This document shows positions 5,872-46,653 of a stretch of DNA of 52,062 bases, one piece after another (position 1 is the first letter of the stretch; each line of letters starts with the position of its first letter). The stretch is from contig NZ_JXDF01000027.1 of the NCBI RefSeq assembly GCF_001308195.1, forward strand, positions 1-52,062, read 5' to 3'. The notes beneath the pieces were generated by a model that was given only the letters and a program-made list of their open reading frames with translations, had not been told where the DNA came from and ran no database searches. This DNA comes from Apilactobacillus kunkeei (GTDB taxonomy: Bacteria; Bacillota; Bacilli; Lactobacillales; Lactobacillaceae). Position numbers and translations under genes: made by a program.

Positions 5872-6158
5872 AAAAAGCGCCCTCAAACCCACACTTAATA
5901 TGGGTCTAAGGACGCTTCCGCGTGTTACCACCTTTAATTTAATAGTCTAAAAAGACTATCCTCTACGTACGGATAAAAATCGATACGCTGTCAACTTAAC
6001 GGTTGCTACCGGCGCCACTTACTGTTGTTTCAGTGGGCTAACTAAAGAATGATAACTTTTAATCAGGTTCGTTATGCTGTCACATCAACCCAGCACTCTC
6101 TTAAAACGATTCTGATTAGTTGTTCTTATAATCGCTATTTATTTATCTAATTGACCCT
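5872..6158 (-). ncRNA. T-box leader (probably tRNA-Ile) upstream of hydratase
   Basis: Reading the minus strand, Stem I contains the AAGAGAG segment and a terminal region. The candidate specifier ATC (rc of 6051-6053) is followed by A and TTCTT, which pairs with AAGAA on the 5' side, as in known T-boxes. The conserved T-box AAAGGTGGTAACACGCG is at 5921-5937; its TGGT bulge would pair with ACCA of an A-discriminator tRNA. The terminator GCGTCCTTAGACCC / GGGTTTGAGGGCGC plus a T run is at 5872-5919. In the family, uncharged cognate tRNA stabilises the antiterminator and turns on downstream genes. T-box identity is firm; the Ile specifier is by-eye and less so. Confidence 0.9.
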
Positions 6159-6196: not shown

Positions 6197-7834
6197 TTAT
6201 TTTTTAATAAAAGTTTTCGTATAGTTCCATTGCGGACCAGCAGTGTTGTGAATAACGTCTTTAACGTAGCTCTTTTGTAGGTAGTAAGTTCTTACTTGAT
6301 ATAGTGGAGTAATTCCTTGATCATCGTTTAGTTCCTTACTTGCATCGATTAGATCTTGCCAACGTTTGCTTGCGTCATTTGCATCTGTAGTGCCAGCCTT
6401 CTTTAATAATGCGTTAAACTTAGCATCGTTGTACTTACCAAAGTTGTAAGGTGTGTTTTGTTCAGGAATTTGTAGGAAGGTAATTGGGTCTTTGAAGTCT
6501 CCACCCCATGATGATAGTGAAATTTCGAAGTTACCCTTAGTTAGATTGTCGTTGGCTAACTTACCCGGAATGGTTCTTAGGTTTAAAGTGAAACCAGGAA
6601 GAACTGATTCCAGTTGCGCCTTTAAGTATTGTGTCGCAACTGGAGTGTTAGCATCATCAGTTGAAGCCATTAATGATAATGACACGTTCTTGATGCCTAA
6701 TTCCTTTAATCCCTTTTCATAGTATTGTTTAGCTAACTTCTTGTTGTAAGCTAGCGAGTCTTTGCTGCCTTGTTGGTCAGCAAAATCCTTGCCAGTCTTT
6801 GGATCATTAGCTAAACCGTAAGGAACGAATCCAGTAATCTTTTTGGTGTTGAAACCAAGAATACTTTCGTTTAGTTGATCTCTATCGATTGCTAAAGAGA
6901 TTGCCTTACGAATGTTTTTGTTGTTAATAATCTTTCTGTTTTGTTCATCAGGGTCGTTAAAGTTGTAACGTAGGAATGTAGTCATTGAATATGAGTAATC
7001 ATGCAATTCTGAATTATTCTTGTAGTTCTTTAATTGTTCTGATGATAATGCAGTCACATCAATCTTACCTTGGTTGTAAAGGTTCAAACTAGTGGTTGGG
7101 TTAGCTACAACAGTGTAGTTAATCTTATTTAGTTTGATGTCCTTAGCATCCCAGTAATTATTGTTCTTTACATATGACCAAGTATCATTAGTTCCATTCC
7201 ATCCCTCAATTGAGAATGGTCCTGAATAAACCATGTACTTAGCATTAGTTCCATACTTATCACCATACTTAGTAACAGTAGCTTGGTCTTGTGGTCCAAA
7301 TAATGGATAAGCCATCAAGGTCTTGAAGTATGCGATTGGTTTAGTTAACTTAATTTGAACTGTATGTTTGTTAAGAGCTTTAATCCCTAACTTATCAGGG
7401 TTCATCTTACCGTTAGTGATAGCTTCACCGTTTTCAACATCGTTGAATAAGTATGAGTACTCAGCCTTAGTTGCAGGTTTTACAGTCCGACGCCATGAAT
7501 ATACGAAGTCATTGGCAGTAATGTCCTTGCCATTACTCCACTTGGCATCTCTTAGTTTAAATGTCCATGTCTTACCATCCTTACTAGTCTTAGCACTTTG
7601 CGCTAAATCTAGTGTTGGTTTCCCATCATCACCAAGCTTGTAAAAACTACTAAAGGCATTTCCTGTGGATCCATATCCAGTAGATGTTGAGATATCTAAA
7701 GTACTTAATTGTGATGTGGCTGCTAAATTTAATGTTTGTGTCTTGGCATCGTTACCGCCTGAATTATTACCACATGCTGATAGCGTTACCCCTGCTAACG
7801 CTGTCATTACTGATGCTACTAATAACTTTTTCAT
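6197..7834 (-). CDS. Oligopeptide ABC transporter substrate-binding lipoprotein (OppA-like), copy 1
   Basis: 545 aa, SBP_bac_5 family, which captures peptides outside the membrane for an ABC importer. Lipoprotein signal with lipobox LSAC, lipidated Cys at residue 21. Family segments include DGKTWTFKLRDAKWSNGKDITANDFVYSWRR in two parts near residues 85-115 and YSGPFSIEGWNGTNDTW near 205. No permease or ATPase subunit lies nearby, so it is an orphan that must use a transporter encoded elsewhere. RBS AGGAG is 9 nt before ATG. A leader with a Cys-rich ORF and a strong terminator precedes it, suggesting amino-acid-responsive attenuation. Two paralogues occur at 42981 and 45031; this copy is the more divergent by inspection. 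Confidence 0.93.
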   Translation of the reverse strand: MKKLLVASVMTALAGVTLSACGNNSGGNDAKTQTLNLAATSQLSTLDISTSTGYGSTGNAFSSFYKLGDDGKPTLDLAQSAKTSKDGKTWTFKLRDAKWSNGKDITANDFVYSWRRTVKPATKAEYSYLFNDVENGEAITNGKMNPDKLGIKALNKHTVQIKLTKPIAYFKTLMAYPLFGPQDQATVTKYGDKYGTNAKYMVYSGPFSIEGWNGTNDTWSYVKNNNYWDAKDIKLNKINYTVVANPTTSLNLYNQGKIDVTALSSEQLKNYKNNSELHDYSYSMTTFLRYNFNDPDEQNRKIINNKNIRKAISLAIDRDQLNESILGFNTKKITGFVPYGLANDPKTGKDFADQQGSKDSLAYNKKLAKQYYEKGLKELGIKNVSLSLMASTDDANTPVATQYLKAQLESVLPGFTLNLRTIPGKLANDNLTKGNFEISLSSWGGDFKDPITFLQIPEQNTPYNFGKYNDAKFNALLKKAGTTDANDASKRWQDLIDASKELNDDQGITPLYQVRTYYLQKSYVKDVIHNTAGPQWNYTKTFIKK

Positions 7835-7875: not shown

Positions 7876-7930
7876 AAAAAGACCACTGCCCGAGGATAAC
7901 AATAATGTTAGCCTCAAACAGTGGTCTCTT
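7876..7930 (-). terminator. Leader terminator (attenuator) of OppA copy 1
   Basis: Hairpin AGACCACTG...GAGG / CCTC...CAGTGGTCT followed by TTTTTCTTTT in the untranslated leader, about 45 nt before the structural ATG. Lying between promoter and gene, it is an attenuator, not an end-of-gene terminator. Its loop carries GCTAAC, complementary to GTTAGC inside the leader ORF (8007-8012), a possible alternative pairing. Confidence 0.85.
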
Positions 7931-7976
7931 ATTCGTATAACTCAATTTTTATTAATTTCTGTCAAACTATCTCGAG

Positions 7977-8054
7977 TTACACGATTAAAAAGGTTACCAC
8001 TTTTGTGCTAACGACAGTTTGACAACAACATGAAATTAAAATTACGTTCTTCAA
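7977..8054 (-). CDS. 25-aa leader peptide with Cys-Cys-Cys-Gln
   Basis: TTG start at 8054, 8 nt after AGAAGG; TAA at 7977-7979. The peptide reads (M)KNVILISCCCQTVVSTK then a Val-rich tail. Three consecutive TGT codons lie at 8022-8030. It sits between a strong promoter and the attenuator, the position of an amino-acid-sensing leader peptide. TGTCAAACT (8016-8024), overlapping the last Cys codon, can pair with AGTTTGACA (7960-7968), so ribosome position over the Cys codons could alter folding. The second locus at 44733 has the same TGTTGTTGTCAA core. Translation and the Cys response are inferred. Confidence 0.7.
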   Translation of the reverse strand: MKNVILISCCCQTVVSTKVVTFLIV

Positions 8055-8091
8055 ATGGATAACCTTCTTTCGTACGGATTGATTATCTTGA

Positions 8092-8120
8092 ATAATACAT
8101 GCTTACAAATGAGAAGTCAA
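8092..8120 (-). promoter_or_regulatory. Promoter of OppA copy 1 leader
   Basis: TTGACT (8115-8120), 17 bp, TATTAT (8092-8097). The bases before the -10 (ATG) match those of the OppA copy 2 promoter. Confidence 0.85.
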
Positions 8121-25917: not shown

Positions 25918-26185
25918 AAATAAACGATTGCGATGAGAAAGTTGAGTAATAACTGACATCAACCAAAGCGAGCTTCGTCTGGTGAAAGGAAGCGTTGATC
26001 AGGTTACGAAAATCCCTTTCGAGCGATGTACTGAACAAAAAGTAAAGTGCATGGGGAGCGCCCCTTACAGCGTCAGCGTATGTTAGTACGTCAAGGTAGC
26101 TTTTTTAAGCTACGAATGTAAGGTGGTACCGTGTCGAATGACGCCCTTAGTCTAATTGTAAAGTTAGATTAAGGGCGTTTTTTTG
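25918..26185 (+). ncRNA. T-box leader, tRNA-Ile type
   Basis: Stem I base pairs GAAAG with CTTTC; the specifier loop has GAGTA on the 5' side and CGAAA-ATC-C on the 3' side, giving the Ile codon ATC at 26012-26014. The CTTTCGAGC that follows is the conserved flank. T-box AAGGTGGTACCGTG is at 26120-26133, with TGGT to pair with the tRNA ACCA end. The terminator ACGCCCTTAGTCTAA / TTAGATTAAGGGCGT plus a T run is at 26141-26183. Ile starvation should permit readthrough into the BrnQ gene. Confidence 0.93.
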
Positions 26186-28467: not shown

Positions 28468-28748
28468 ATTCAATAAATCAGTTTAAAAAAGCGATGAAAA
28501 AGCAGAGTAACAATTCGGCTAGTTCAAGAGAGTTCCTACTTTCTGGAAACGGGATAACTACTAAATTGCGAAAGTATCTTTGGAGCTATATACCGAAATC
28601 CGTTGGAGAGTAACGTATATTGGGTACACCCATTACAGTGTTAGCGTATGTTAGTACGTGAAGTGGCTAGACTATTTGTCTAGCAATTAAAGGTGGTACC
28701 GTGCACAAAGCACCCTTGGTTCAATACGAGCTAAGGGTGCTTTTTTAT
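28468..28748 (+). ncRNA. T-box leader, tRNA-Val type
   Basis: Specifier loop: 5' GAGTA, 3' GCGAAA-GTA-T followed by CTTTGGAGC, giving the Val codon GTA at 28574-28576. AAGAGAG is present in Stem I. T-box AAAGGTGGTACCGTGC is at 28689-28704; terminator GCACCCTTGG / CTAAGGGTGC plus T run at 28709-28746. The same register of GAAA-specifier-N-CTTT as in the first T-box supports the reading. Val starvation should induce the second BrnQ. Confidence 0.92.
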
Positions 28749-42980: not shown

Positions 42981-44597
42981 CTATTTAACGTAAGTTTCAG
43001 AGAAGTCCCAGATTGGGCCATTTCCGTAGAAACGCACATTGTGAATATCACTCTTAATTAGTTCAGCTTGTGCTGGTTGGAATAGCGGAATTAGACCTTG
43101 GTCGTCTAATAATACCTTTTGGGCGTCTACTAAATCGTTCCAGCGTTTTGCTGGGTTCAAAGCATCATCGTCATTTGATTTATCAATCAACTTGTCGTAT
43201 TCAGCGTTACTCCACTTAGCAGTATTCATTGAATTAGTTGAGTATCTAATATTTAGTGGTGAAATAGGATCACTAATTGATGGACTCCAACCTGTAACTG
43301 CTACTTGATATTGGCCACTTAAGAATCTTGAGGTCGCTACTGTGTTTGGAAGTAATGTTAGATTAACTTTCAAACCAGGTAGCTTAGAAAATTGGTTTTG
43401 AATGAATTCAACAATAGGTTTAGCATCATCACCATTATTACTATTAATGGAAATGGTTAAGTTCTTTTTACCGATTTCACTTAAACCTTTTTTCCATAGC
43501 TTCTTAGCTTGTTCAACGTTACCGTTGACTGCGTCAGAAACGCTAGCGTAGTCGTTAAAGTCTTTACCGTTACGTGATGCCAAAGTATCTGGCACAATTC
43601 CACGTGCTTGAGTTGAACCGTTACCTAAAACATCGTTTAGTAGTTCTTTTCTATTGATGATTAACGATAGTGCCTTTCTGATGTTAACGTTTCTAAACGC
43701 AGGTTCGTTCTTGTTACTTAGTGATAGGTATCTTACACTGTAAATCTTTCTTAAATGGAAGTCCTTTGAGTTCTTGTAGCTGCTATATTGTTGCTTACCA
43801 ACTAAAGTAGTTTGATCTAACTTACCGCTTTGGTATTCGTTCAAAGCAGTTTGTGGGTCCTTGATTACTGTGTACTTGATGCTGTCAAGTTTTGTCTTGT
43901 CAGCATTGTAGTATTCCTTGTTCTTGGTTAAAGTCCATGAATCGTTGGTACCATTCCAGTTAGTAATTTTAAAGGCACCATTATATAGCATTTTGCTACT
44001 GGTTGTTCCGTAGCTCTTACCATATTTCTTAACAGTACTTTCTGATTGTGGGTAGAACACTGGTAATACTAATAGGTTCAAGAAGTATGGTTGGGGTTTA
44101 ATTAACTTAATTTGTAGCTTGTACTTACCGATTGCCTTCACGCCCAATTGATCTGATGATAGTTGTGACTTAGAGATGGCTGTGTAGTTTTCAATGTTAT
44201 CCATGTAGTAAGCTTCTTGTGAGGCGGTCTTTGGATTAGCACTACGTTTGATACCGTATTCGAAATCCTTTGCTGTTAATTCTTGGCCATTACTCCACTT
44301 AGTGTGTTTCAAATCAAATGTGTATGTCTTACCATCCTTTGAAACGTGATAGCTCTTGGCGGTTGCTAGACGCACCTTGTTACTACCATCTGGAGATACT
44401 AAACCAGAAAAAGCATTATAAACAGCTTGTTGAGTGTTAGTGTCAACAGCTTTTGATGGATCAAGTGACGCAATGGATGCGTTTGTCATCCAGTTCAGGT
44501 GTTTTTTATTACTTGATTGACTCTTACCACAAGCGGTTAATACCAAACCAAGTAATGCAGTGGTAACGATGATTGATAATATCCGTGACTTTTTCAT
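42981..44597 (-). CDS. Oligopeptide ABC transporter substrate-binding lipoprotein (OppA-like), copy 2
   Basis: 538 aa from ATG at 44597, which is 7 nt after AAAGGAG; the ATG two codons earlier abuts the site. Lipobox LTAC, Cys at residue 23. SBP_bac_5 features: SLDPSKAVDTNTQQAVYNAFSGL, DGKTYTFDLKHTKWSNGQELTAKDFEYGIKRS (two parts), NGAFKITNWNGTNDSW. Very similar to copy 3 next door and less to copy 1. No permease or ATPase nearby. Preceded by a leader with a Cys-Cys-Cys-Gln ORF and terminator. Confidence 0.93.
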   Translation of the reverse strand: MKKSRILSIIVTTALLGLVLTACGKSQSSNKKHLNWMTNASIASLDPSKAVDTNTQQAVYNAFSGLVSPDGSNKVRLATAKSYHVSKDGKTYTFDLKHTKWSNGQELTAKDFEYGIKRSANPKTASQEAYYMDNIENYTAISKSQLSSDQLGVKAIGKYKLQIKLIKPQPYFLNLLVLPVFYPQSESTVKKYGKSYGTTSSKMLYNGAFKITNWNGTNDSWTLTKNKEYYNADKTKLDSIKYTVIKDPQTALNEYQSGKLDQTTLVGKQQYSSYKNSKDFHLRKIYSVRYLSLSNKNEPAFRNVNIRKALSLIINRKELLNDVLGNGSTQARGIVPDTLASRNGKDFNDYASVSDAVNGNVEQAKKLWKKGLSEIGKKNLTISINSNNGDDAKPIVEFIQNQFSKLPGLKVNLTLLPNTVATSRFLSGQYQVAVTGWSPSISDPISPLNIRYSTNSMNTAKWSNAEYDKLIDKSNDDDALNPAKRWNDLVDAQKVLLDDQGLIPLFQPAQAELIKSDIHNVRFYGNGPIWDFSETYVK

Positions 44598-44645
44598 ATC
44601 CATACTCCTTTGTTCAATAAATACTCTTTACATAGATGGCCATCT

Positions 44646-44701
44646 AAAAAAAGAAAAAGGGCGTCATGATTCTACGCTAAAAAGCCGAACCATGACACCC
44701 C
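44646..44701 (-). terminator. Leader terminator (attenuator) of OppA copy 2
   Basis: Stem GGGTGTCATGGTTC / GAATCATGACGCCC (with G-U pairs) then TTTTTCTTTTTTT, between the leader ORF and the structural gene. Its place upstream of the coding region and in the same transcript marks it as an attenuator. Confidence 0.88.
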
Positions 44702-44732
44702 GTTATAATCTAATTAAAAAACGTCTTCTTGA

Positions 44733-44804
44733 TTAGAATATAAGAATAGAGTTCATGCTTCGATATTGACAACAACACATTTGTTCTTCGTTAAACATCT
44801 TCAT
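44733..44804 (-). CDS. 23-aa leader peptide with Cys-Cys-Cys-Gln
   Basis: ATG at 44804 follows AAGGAGGGG, one of the strongest Shine-Dalgarno sites in the window; TAA at 44733-44735. The peptide reads MKMFNEEQMCCCQYRSMNS then a short hydrophobic end. Three consecutive TGT codons are at 44769-44777. It shares TGTTGTTGTCAA with the leader of OppA copy 1, while the surrounding residues differ, so the Cys run is what is conserved. The attenuator begins 32 nt later. Confidence 0.8.
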   Translation of the reverse strand: MKMFNEEQMCCCQYRSMNSILIF

Positions 44805-44832
44805 TATGAACCCCTCCTTATGATTTATAAGT

Positions 44833-44861
44833 ATAATACATCCGAACGAAATTTTTGACAA
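44833..44861 (-). promoter_or_regulatory. Promoter of OppA copy 2 leader
   Basis: TTGTCA (44856-44861), 17 bp, TATTAT (44833-44838). The 44862-44994 stretch upstream is AT-rich and I see nothing else in it. Confidence 0.85.
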
Positions 44862-45030: not shown

Positions 45031-46653
45031 TTATTTAATGTAAGCGTGAGAGAAATCCCAAACCGGACCATTTCCTAAGTACTTAACACCATGAATATTA
45101 GTTTTCATTAGTTCTGGTTGGGCCTTTTGAATCAATGGAATAATTCCTTGATCATTTAAGATTACCTTTTGAGCATTTACTAAATCAAAGAAACGTTTAT
45201 TTTGATTATTAGCATCTTCATTATTTGAACGATCAATGTACATATCATACATTGCGTTGCCCCATTTAGAAGTATTAATTGGACTGGTTGAAACTTTAGT
45301 TTGTAGAGGTGAGATTGGATCACTAATTGATGGGTCCCATCCTGAAACTGAAAGTTCGTAATCAGATTTTAATGAACGACCGGAAGCAACGTTATTAGGC
45401 AAGATTTCTGCATTTACCTTTAGTCCTGGTAATTTTTCTAATTCGGTTTGCAAGAATTCAGTAACAGAACGACTCGTTTGATCGTTGTTGTTCATAATTG
45501 AAATTGATACAGACTTCTTACCAATTTCTTTTAATCCCTTAGCCCATAATTCTTTTGCTTTAGTTAAATCACCAGTAGTAGCATCTTTAACAGTAGCATA
45601 ATCATTGAAGTCCTTACCGTTCATGTAAGCCAAAGTATCTGGAACCAATCCTCTGGCAGCAAATGAACCGTCCCCTAAAACATTTTGAGTTAATTCTTCA
45701 CGATTAATTGCTAATGATAAAGCTTTTCTTAAGTTCTTGTTTTTTAGAGCAGGAACTTTGCTTTGATTAATGGATAGATATTGAACCATAAACTGCTTGT
45801 GGTTCACAAAATCTTTATTATTCTTGTAGGTGTTAACTTGTTGTTTACCTGCTAATAGTGTTTGATCCAACTTACCTGATTGGTATTCATCCAATGCAGT
45901 TTGTGGATCCTTAATCACTGAATAGTTGATGGCCTTTAATTTCACGTTAGCATTATCATAGTAGCCTTTATTCTTGGATAATGTCCAAGCATCGTTGCTA
46001 CCTTTCCAGTTTTTAACAGCAAATGGACCATCATATACCATCTTATCTGATGTTGTTCCGTAAGCGGTACCGTATTTTTCAACTAACGTCTTTTGTTGAG
46101 GATAAAAGACAGGTAATGCTAAGACATTTATAAAATCAGCTTGTGGTTTAGTTAAAGTAATTTGCAACTTATTGTCGCCCATTGCTTTAACTCCCAATTT
46201 ATCAGCTGACATTGAACCTGTCTTCACTTTATCGTAATTCATAATATTAGCCATGTAGTATGCCATTTGTGAAGCAGTCTTAGGATCGGCGCTACGTTTG
46301 ATTCCGTATTCAAAATCACCGGCAGTAACCTTCTTACCATTACTCCACTTAGTGTTTCTTAAGGTGAAAGTGTAAGTCTTTCCACCATTAGTAACCTTGT
46401 AATTCTTTGCAATTGCTAGGTCAATCTTATTTCCTTTATCGGGAGTAACTAAACCACGCATTGCGTTGTATAAAACTTGATCACTGGTAACATCAACAGC
46501 CTTAGAAGGATCTAAAGTGGTCAATGTTGTATTACTCATCCAATTCAATGAATCTGTTCTAGATGTTGTATCTGATGATTTACCGCAAGCGGCAAGCACC
46601 ATTGTTGCAGCAATGGCCACTACACCTAGTTTTGCAATTGACTTGAATTTCAT
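45031..46653 (-). CDS. Oligopeptide ABC transporter substrate-binding lipoprotein (OppA-like), copy 3
   Basis: 540 aa. Lipobox LAAC, Cys at residue 22. Aligns with copy 2 along its length (TLDPSKAVDVTSDQVLYNAMRGLV; YTFTLRNTKWSNGKKVTAGDFEYGIKRSAD; KVSTSPINTSKWGNAMYD), so the two are tandem duplicates. RBS AGGGGGATGA about 8-10 nt before ATG. Unlike copies 1 and 2 its short leader has neither a Cys ORF nor a terminator, so the copies are probably expressed under different conditions. Confidence 0.93.
   Translation of the reverse strand: MKFKSIAKLGVVAIAATMVLAACGKSSDTTSRTDSLNWMSNTTLTTLDPSKAVDVTSDQVLYNAMRGLVTPDKGNKIDLAIAKNYKVTNGGKTYTFTLRNTKWSNGKKVTAGDFEYGIKRSADPKTASQMAYYMANIMNYDKVKTGSMSADKLGVKAMGDNKLQITLTKPQADFINVLALPVFYPQQKTLVEKYGTAYGTTSDKMVYDGPFAVKNWKGSNDAWTLSKNKGYYDNANVKLKAINYSVIKDPQTALDEYQSGKLDQTLLAGKQQVNTYKNNKDFVNHKQFMVQYLSINQSKVPALKNKNLRKALSLAINREELTQNVLGDGSFAARGLVPDTLAYMNGKDFNDYATVKDATTGDLTKAKELWAKGLKEIGKKSVSISIMNNNDQTSRSVTEFLQTELEKLPGLKVNAEILPNNVASGRSLKSDYELSVSGWDPSISDPISPLQTKVSTSPINTSKWGNAMYDMYIDRSNNEDANNQNKRFFDLVNAQKVILNDQGIIPLIQKAQPELMKTNIHGVKYLGNGPVWDFSHAYIK

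Follow-up and report, generated by a model that had tools for sequence, protein, structure and literature searches.

Cysteine-codon leaders before two oppA genes of Apilactobacillus kunkeei

The window analyzed here is a whole stretch of 52,062 nucleotides from A. kunkeei (contig NZ_JXDF01000027.1, assembly GCF_001308195.1). On its minus strand, oppA2, whose product is 99% identical to its counterpart in A. kunkeei DSM 12361, is preceded by a leader with a short cysteine-codon ORF. A paralogous leader with its parts in identical order precedes oppA1. The features of the two loci are as follows.

44833..44861, minus strand: promoter-like site TTGTCA-N17-TATTAT of the oppA2 leader (10/12 matches)
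44811..44819, minus strand: strong Shine-Dalgarno (SD) sequence AAGGAGGGG of the oppA2 leader, which is also arm 1 of an SD-hiding helix
44733..44804, minus strand: leader ORF MKMFNEEQMCCCQYRSMNSILIF, 23 aa (24 codons including the stop)
44769..44777, minus strand: TGT TGT TGT (three Cys codons), proposed stall site
44742..44763, minus strand: switch segment, able to pair with the SD region or, as antiterminator, with the 5' arm of the terminator (pairing p 0.0025, the floor of 400 shuffles)
44657..44701, minus strand: intrinsic terminator hairpin of the oppA2 leader, -26.8 kcal/mol
42981..44603, minus strand: oppA2, orphan peptide-binding lipoprotein, presumably under leader control
7977..8054, minus strand: paralogous leader LKNVILISCCCQTVVSTKVVTFLIV, TTG start
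7876..7930, minus strand: terminator of the paralogous leader, -34.5 kcal/mol
6197..7834, minus strand: oppA1, 38% identical to oppA2

The oppA2 leader reported in the preliminary description is real: a strong SD, the codons TGT TGT TGT CAA (44777-44766, minus strand) and a terminator with a T-rich tail lie before oppA2. The terminator hairpin (44701-44657, minus strand) is followed by TTTCTTTTTT, with the tail reaching about 44647. The region 44861-44630 folds with a z score of -4.19, and none of 200 shuffles was equally stable; a generic terminator scan listed neither the oppA2-leader nor the oppA1-leader hairpin. The promoter-like site is weak by itself because shuffles of the leader region gave 2.4 such sites per region. 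The leader at 7977-8054 was also as first described, except that it starts with TTG. Two elements of a leader-peptide attenuator are therefore present before oppA2, i.e., a short ORF with an SD that is predicted from sequence to be translatable, and an intrinsic terminator between leader and gene. No Cys leader was found before a third oppA-like gene (45031-46653), which lies just upstream of the oppA2 leader, or before two further oppA-like genes elsewhere in the genome, and an Rfam search of the window gave no T-box at 44600-44861 or 7877-8120.

Conservation within the genus

In the whole 1.56-Mb genome, the 12-mer TGTTGTTGTCAA is found at two places only, namely the two leaders. Across 16 genomes of the genus it has 14 copies, of which 13 sit 163-196 nt before an oppA-like match, the single copy with no such match behind it being in G007; the reversed 12-mer occurs 7 times in the same genomes. 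The preliminary description had raised the question of whether the genes behind such leaders are enriched in transport functions. Within the genus they are, as the exact 12-mer precedes oppA in 13 of 14 cases; elsewhere our search started from the gene and not from the leader, and the enrichment is stated for the genus only.

From the matches listed for the 16 Apilactobacillus genomes, we read 75 oppA-like ones and disregarded 8, of which 7 were weak and one is the second half of the gene that is broken in G009. An upstream short ORF (uORF) with adjacent Cys codons precedes all nine oppA2-type genes, which are at least 63% identical to oppA2 (eight have CCC and one has CC), and all 12 oppA1-type genes (11 intact genes at least 60% identical to oppA1, plus the broken copy in G009), and a CC-containing short ORF with an SD precedes none of the remaining 54. 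The G009 copy (G009:C1:163730-165101) is interrupted by in-frame stops and retains both the Cys leader and the terminator.

Cys runs might arise by chance in random short ORFs. Among 1500 dinucleotide-shuffled upstreams, 38 do contain a short ORF with CC and an SD, and one has CCC (450-nt rule). However, under the same rule such ORFs are present in 20 of the 75 real upstreams (21 within 600 nt), every one of them in the two clades, and in 0 of 75 on the opposite strand. The two-clade restriction and both controls refute chance as an explanation, which we regard as extremely improbable, in line with the first assessment of these leaders.

Across the genus, the Cys run is retained while the flanking residues change, and it is confined to the two oppA clades; a leader-peptide attenuator is expected to conserve consecutive codons for the amino acid that it senses, and these leaders do so. 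The shared Gln codon, which the preliminary description suggested might matter for stalling, is not needed. Q follows the Cys run in 13 of 21 leaders (the two Apilactobacillus types plus two relatives), and the other eight have I, M, H, R or L there; of 62 distinct leaders that contain a Cys pair or run, 21 have Q next. Within the genus, the oppA2 leaders have Q, R or H after CCC, the oppA1 leaders Q or I. Since this residue varies, Gln is not part of the constraint, and its role as a signal component was rejected. The independence of the two leaders, also claimed initially, is unproven: by eye, the N-terminal pattern (M/L)FN..Q..CCC recurs in several leaders of each type, which makes leader copying possible.

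Leaders and T-boxes before oppA1 relatives in Lactobacillaceae

Matches to oppA1 (E up to 1e-118) were found in 84 of 201 Lactobacillaceae genomes. Outside the genus, 60 of the 61 listed matches with at least 46% identity were read (G169 was left out). A Cys-rich uORF precedes 48 of these 60 genes, six have a T-box at the same position instead, and six have neither. The 48 uORFs show CC, CCC, CCCC and CCxCC patterns, a few have spread-out Cys codons, and odd members include one with an ACG start and one of only 7 aa. Four more distant oppA genes (43-46% identity, L203-L206) have no leader. Among plasmid-borne oppA1 relatives, three of four carry the leader (Lactobacillus salivarius UCC118, L. 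amylolyticus and L. intestinalis), and that of L. curvatus has none.

Five of the six T-boxes were detected by Rfam below the gathering score (65.8-84.7 vs 93 bits), and the sixth (L173) was recognized by eye only; at the gathering threshold, Rfam gave no match on nine oppA1 loci. Like the attenuator proposed below, the T-box riboswitch (RF00230) senses tRNA charging and controls a terminator, but it has no ORF and binds tRNA directly. As its specifier at these loci reads AUG by eye, i.e., Met and not Cys, a Cys T-box in oppA1 orthologues was rejected.

In a FastTree phylogeny of 106 proteins, the oppA1 types group together with the T-box members inside, whereas the oppA2 types are in a separate part, beside leaderless paralogues. 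This separation implies that the leaders are either separate gains or one leader that was copied. In genus g32, the Cys codons in the leader of the oppA2-like genes (L207 and L208) stand singly and apart from each other.

Several lineages show additional features. At seven loci (L150, L154, L183, L198, L193, L197 and L200), a second short Cys-codon ORF with an SD lies between the terminator and oppA (example peptides are MKKACCCRMLRGSI, MAKSCCCWMMTKN and MESECNCKRISDT); this ORF could add a translational layer. In genus g30 (L155, L156 and L157), a conserved small ORF with the end WRGSSRG..AM lies between the Met-type T-box and oppA. The leaders of genus g38 (L180, L182, L187, L191, L195, L196 and L201) have MMM directly before CCPCC, which suggests that Met shortage might also be sensed.

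Leaders before cysteine-synthesis operons

A Cys-rich uORF was also found at 15 of 20 cysE loci in Lactobacillaceae (20 fetched out of 47 strong matches listed), either before cysE or before a cysK/CBS-lyase-cysE operon; the other five lack both leader and T-box. Of 30 cysK2/CBS loci from four other Lactobacillales families (the best 30 listed matches), 27 have such a uORF and three have neither. Moreover, all four named plasmid operons carry the leader (L. rhamnosus Lc 705, L. casei ATCC 393, L. paracasei IIA and L. fermentum DR9). An E. faecalis operon has it too, with the leader annotated as a hypothetical protein (WP_002355203.1). The targets thus include genes that supply the sensed amino acid, namely the cysE/cysK2 operons, and the putative cargo of OppA may serve the same supply. 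Cys runs conserved before two oppA clades as well as before cysteine-biosynthesis operons support the common sensing mechanism that was proposed from the two A. kunkeei leaders. In the genus of the window, no cysE match is strong (the best have E 1e-11 to 1e-13), and no CBS was found in the A. kunkeei genome at 1e-70, which would fit a dependence on imported cysteine without proving it.

Published expression data are available for one operon of this kind. According to the available text of a 2018 paper (PMC6004538), cysE2-ctl1-cysK2 of L. paracasei FAM18149 was higher in medium deficient in cysteine than in medium deficient in methionine (log2 2.9 to 3.2, ~8-9x) and had high 5'UTR coverage, no T-box and a terminator motif AAGGGCGCGAAA-N16-TTTCGCGCCCTT; its control mechanism was described there as "yet to be discovered". 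The exact AAGGGCGCGAAA-N16-TTTCGCGCCCTT motif is present in L. rhamnosus Lc 705, whose operon has it 69-odd nt downstream of the leader MMSQSMFNAINCCCRTTRFWRCSAC. Judging from the Lc 705 sequence, the terminator of cysK2-ctl1-cysE2 in the L. casei group is preceded by a leader of this kind. The accessible parts of an L. rhamnosus ribosome-profiling paper (PMC9140532) make no mention of Cys leaders.

A probable cysteine-responsive attenuator

The ORF with its SD, the Cys run and the terminator, their conservation, the pairing potential of the RNA and the like layout before cysteine-synthesis operons fit classical attenuation in parts and order, from which we infer the dynamics, namely stalling and antitermination in the cell, as well as the peptide cargo. 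The oppA2 leader is very probably a cysteine-responsive transcription attenuator, in which ribosome stalling at the Cys codons would prevent termination. When Cys-tRNA is plentiful, the ribosome would pass the Cys codons and reach the stop codon, the switch segment (44763-44742) would be covered, or would pair with the SD of its leader, the terminator would form, and oppA2 would stay untranscribed. When Cys-tRNA is short, the ribosome would stall on the Cys codons and leave the downstream switch segment free to pair with the 5' arm of the terminator before its 3' arm is made. Polymerase would then read through, and OppA2 would be made and would import cysteine-containing peptides. The T-boxes in six oppA1 relatives bear on this reading in both directions: being another sensor of tRNA charging, they speak for it, and reading Met instead of Cys, they speak against it.

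The leader might instead affect only translation or RNA decay, with the hairpin being an ordinary small-RNA terminator, as its SD can be hidden by downstream RNA and, in a few genera, another ORF with Cys codons lies past the terminator. However, a terminator-like hairpin follows the ORF in 69 of 69 oppA leaders in a scan with no shuffle control (70 of 70 before L202, with no terminator in place, was set aside) and in 34 of 34 other leaders tested, and the 5'UTR coverage of one such operon is high in the available text of PMC6004538. We consider this alternative quite unlikely.

For attenuation of transcription, the RNA from 12 nt past the first Cys codon of the run was compared with the 5' arm of the terminator, against shuffles (L163 was excluded). 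Antiterminator pairing reached p<0.05 in 41 of 68 oppA leaders (about 3 expected; 26 of 42 after thinning of similar peptides) and p<0.01 in 20 of 68 (about 1 expected). It starts at a median of 18 nt past the first Cys codon, the search itself starting at 12 nt by design. Among leaders of one type (e.g., L058, L065 and L066), the pairing arms vary in sequence with pairing kept, as expected for maintained pairing. Nine of 34 cysteine-operon and plasmid leaders also reached p<0.05. In this simple duplex test, 27 of the 68 oppA leaders and 25 of the 34 other leaders, whole lineages among them, had no significant antiterminator; the leaders of genus g38 fail it, and the L. paracasei cysK2 leader gave p 0.74. 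In the SD helix, 98% of cells are paired in oppA2 leaders with 2 double changes, and oppA1 leaders have 8 double-change cells, a number reached by 0 of 500 shuffles. Covariation is thus helpful for the SD helix, but it is weak in the antiterminator, where as many as 54 and 278 of 500 shuffles reached the observed scores.

In full-length folding, the terminator was always preferred and no state-dependent switch was seen. In the oppA2 partial transcript, the antiterminator had a value of 0.75 without a ribosome, 0.77 with a stalled ribosome and 0.56 with the ribosome at the stop codon (0.82, 0.82 and 0.33 for oppA1). When the ribosome was placed at the first Cys codon, the energy of the antiterminator was -25.2 kcal/mol, compared with -13.6 kcal/mol for a ribosome at the stop codon (-38.6 and -20.3 kcal/mol for oppA1). 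Since the antiterminator forms even without a ribosome and the full-length RNA prefers the terminator, the switch would rest on kinetics. Equilibrium folding with ribosome masks gave a weaker antiterminator at the stop codon but no clean switch.

Cys makes up 14.4% (271/1887) of the leader residues, which speaks for the attenuator. CC, CCC and CCxCC as well as Met (6.6%) are frequent, and a nascent Cys-rich peptide could be the sensor in place of Cys-tRNA charging, either as an arrest peptide or by sensing thiols, metals or redox state through CC or CCxCC in the exit tunnel. This appears unlikely: beyond Cys, the peptides have little in common between genera and the residues around the run vary, targets in cysteine metabolism and peptide uptake suit tRNA charging, and 6 of 60 orthologues have T-boxes instead. 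Another alternative is that the leader encodes a small protein with a function of its own, or a peptide signal taken up through OppA, and that the Cys run is incidental; PrgZ, a pheromone-binding protein, is among the nearest solved relatives. Five leader peptides tested had no match in Pfam or NCBIfam, however, and were rejected as a known protein family; nothing but Cys is common in sequence, and like leaders precede cysteine-synthesis genes, which makes such a role very unlikely.

Relation to known systems

According to the title of the report (Canestrari et al. 2020, cited in PMC13236596), the mycobacterial polycysteine uORF attenuators likewise have runs of Cys codons in a short upstream ORF and respond to cysteine. 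These ORFs are leaderless and belong to Actinobacteria, whereas the Lactobacillales leaders are SD-led, have an intrinsic terminator and include oppA among their targets. Candidate Cys leader peptides with a Cys run before cysteine genes were likewise proposed in Actinobacteria, for cys operons of Mycobacterium and P. acnes and for cbs of B. longum, but in the available text (PMC1262725) no terminator was found for them and the Cys run is near the stop codon. The uORFC-8-2 motif before cysS in Rhodobacterales also has tandem Cys codons, an intrinsic terminator and predicted ribosome-mediated attenuation; as presented in the accessible text (PMC8632094), it differs in being alphaproteobacterial, with one target gene and two Cys codons inside a conserved RNA motif. 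Within Firmicutes, His leader peptides before hisS paralogues of bacilli are a further case of leader-peptide attenuation with exchange for T-boxes, but they concern histidine, and the available part of that paper (PMC2965389) holds no cysteine or oppA case. No report of Cys leader peptides in Lactobacillales was found in the full-text literature, the coverage of which was partial and mostly without subscription papers. This kind of attenuator is already known; its lineage, targets and scale look new.

Taken together, these leaders probably form an order-wide cysteine regulon of Lactobacillales, which would comprise peptide-binding proteins in cysteine importers and cysE/cysK2/CBS operons in cysteine makers, would be interchangeable with T-boxes and would have a second Cys uORF in some genera. 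If true, such a widespread system would provide a testable answer to the published question of how L. paracasei cysK2-ctl1-cysE2 is controlled, point to the probable physiological function of orphan OppA proteins, and allow small ORFs annotated as hypothetical (e.g., WP_002355203.1 of E. faecalis) to be re-read as regulators. The pathways concerned underlie the formation of sulfur flavour in cheese and the growth of bee lactobacilli. In lactobacilli, the amino-acid sensors described so far are usually T-boxes, and the cysteine leader peptides would add a second sensor type beside them. Three T-box leaders are present elsewhere in the window, at 5905-6141 (minus strand), 25924-26151 (plus strand) and 28485-28720 (plus strand).
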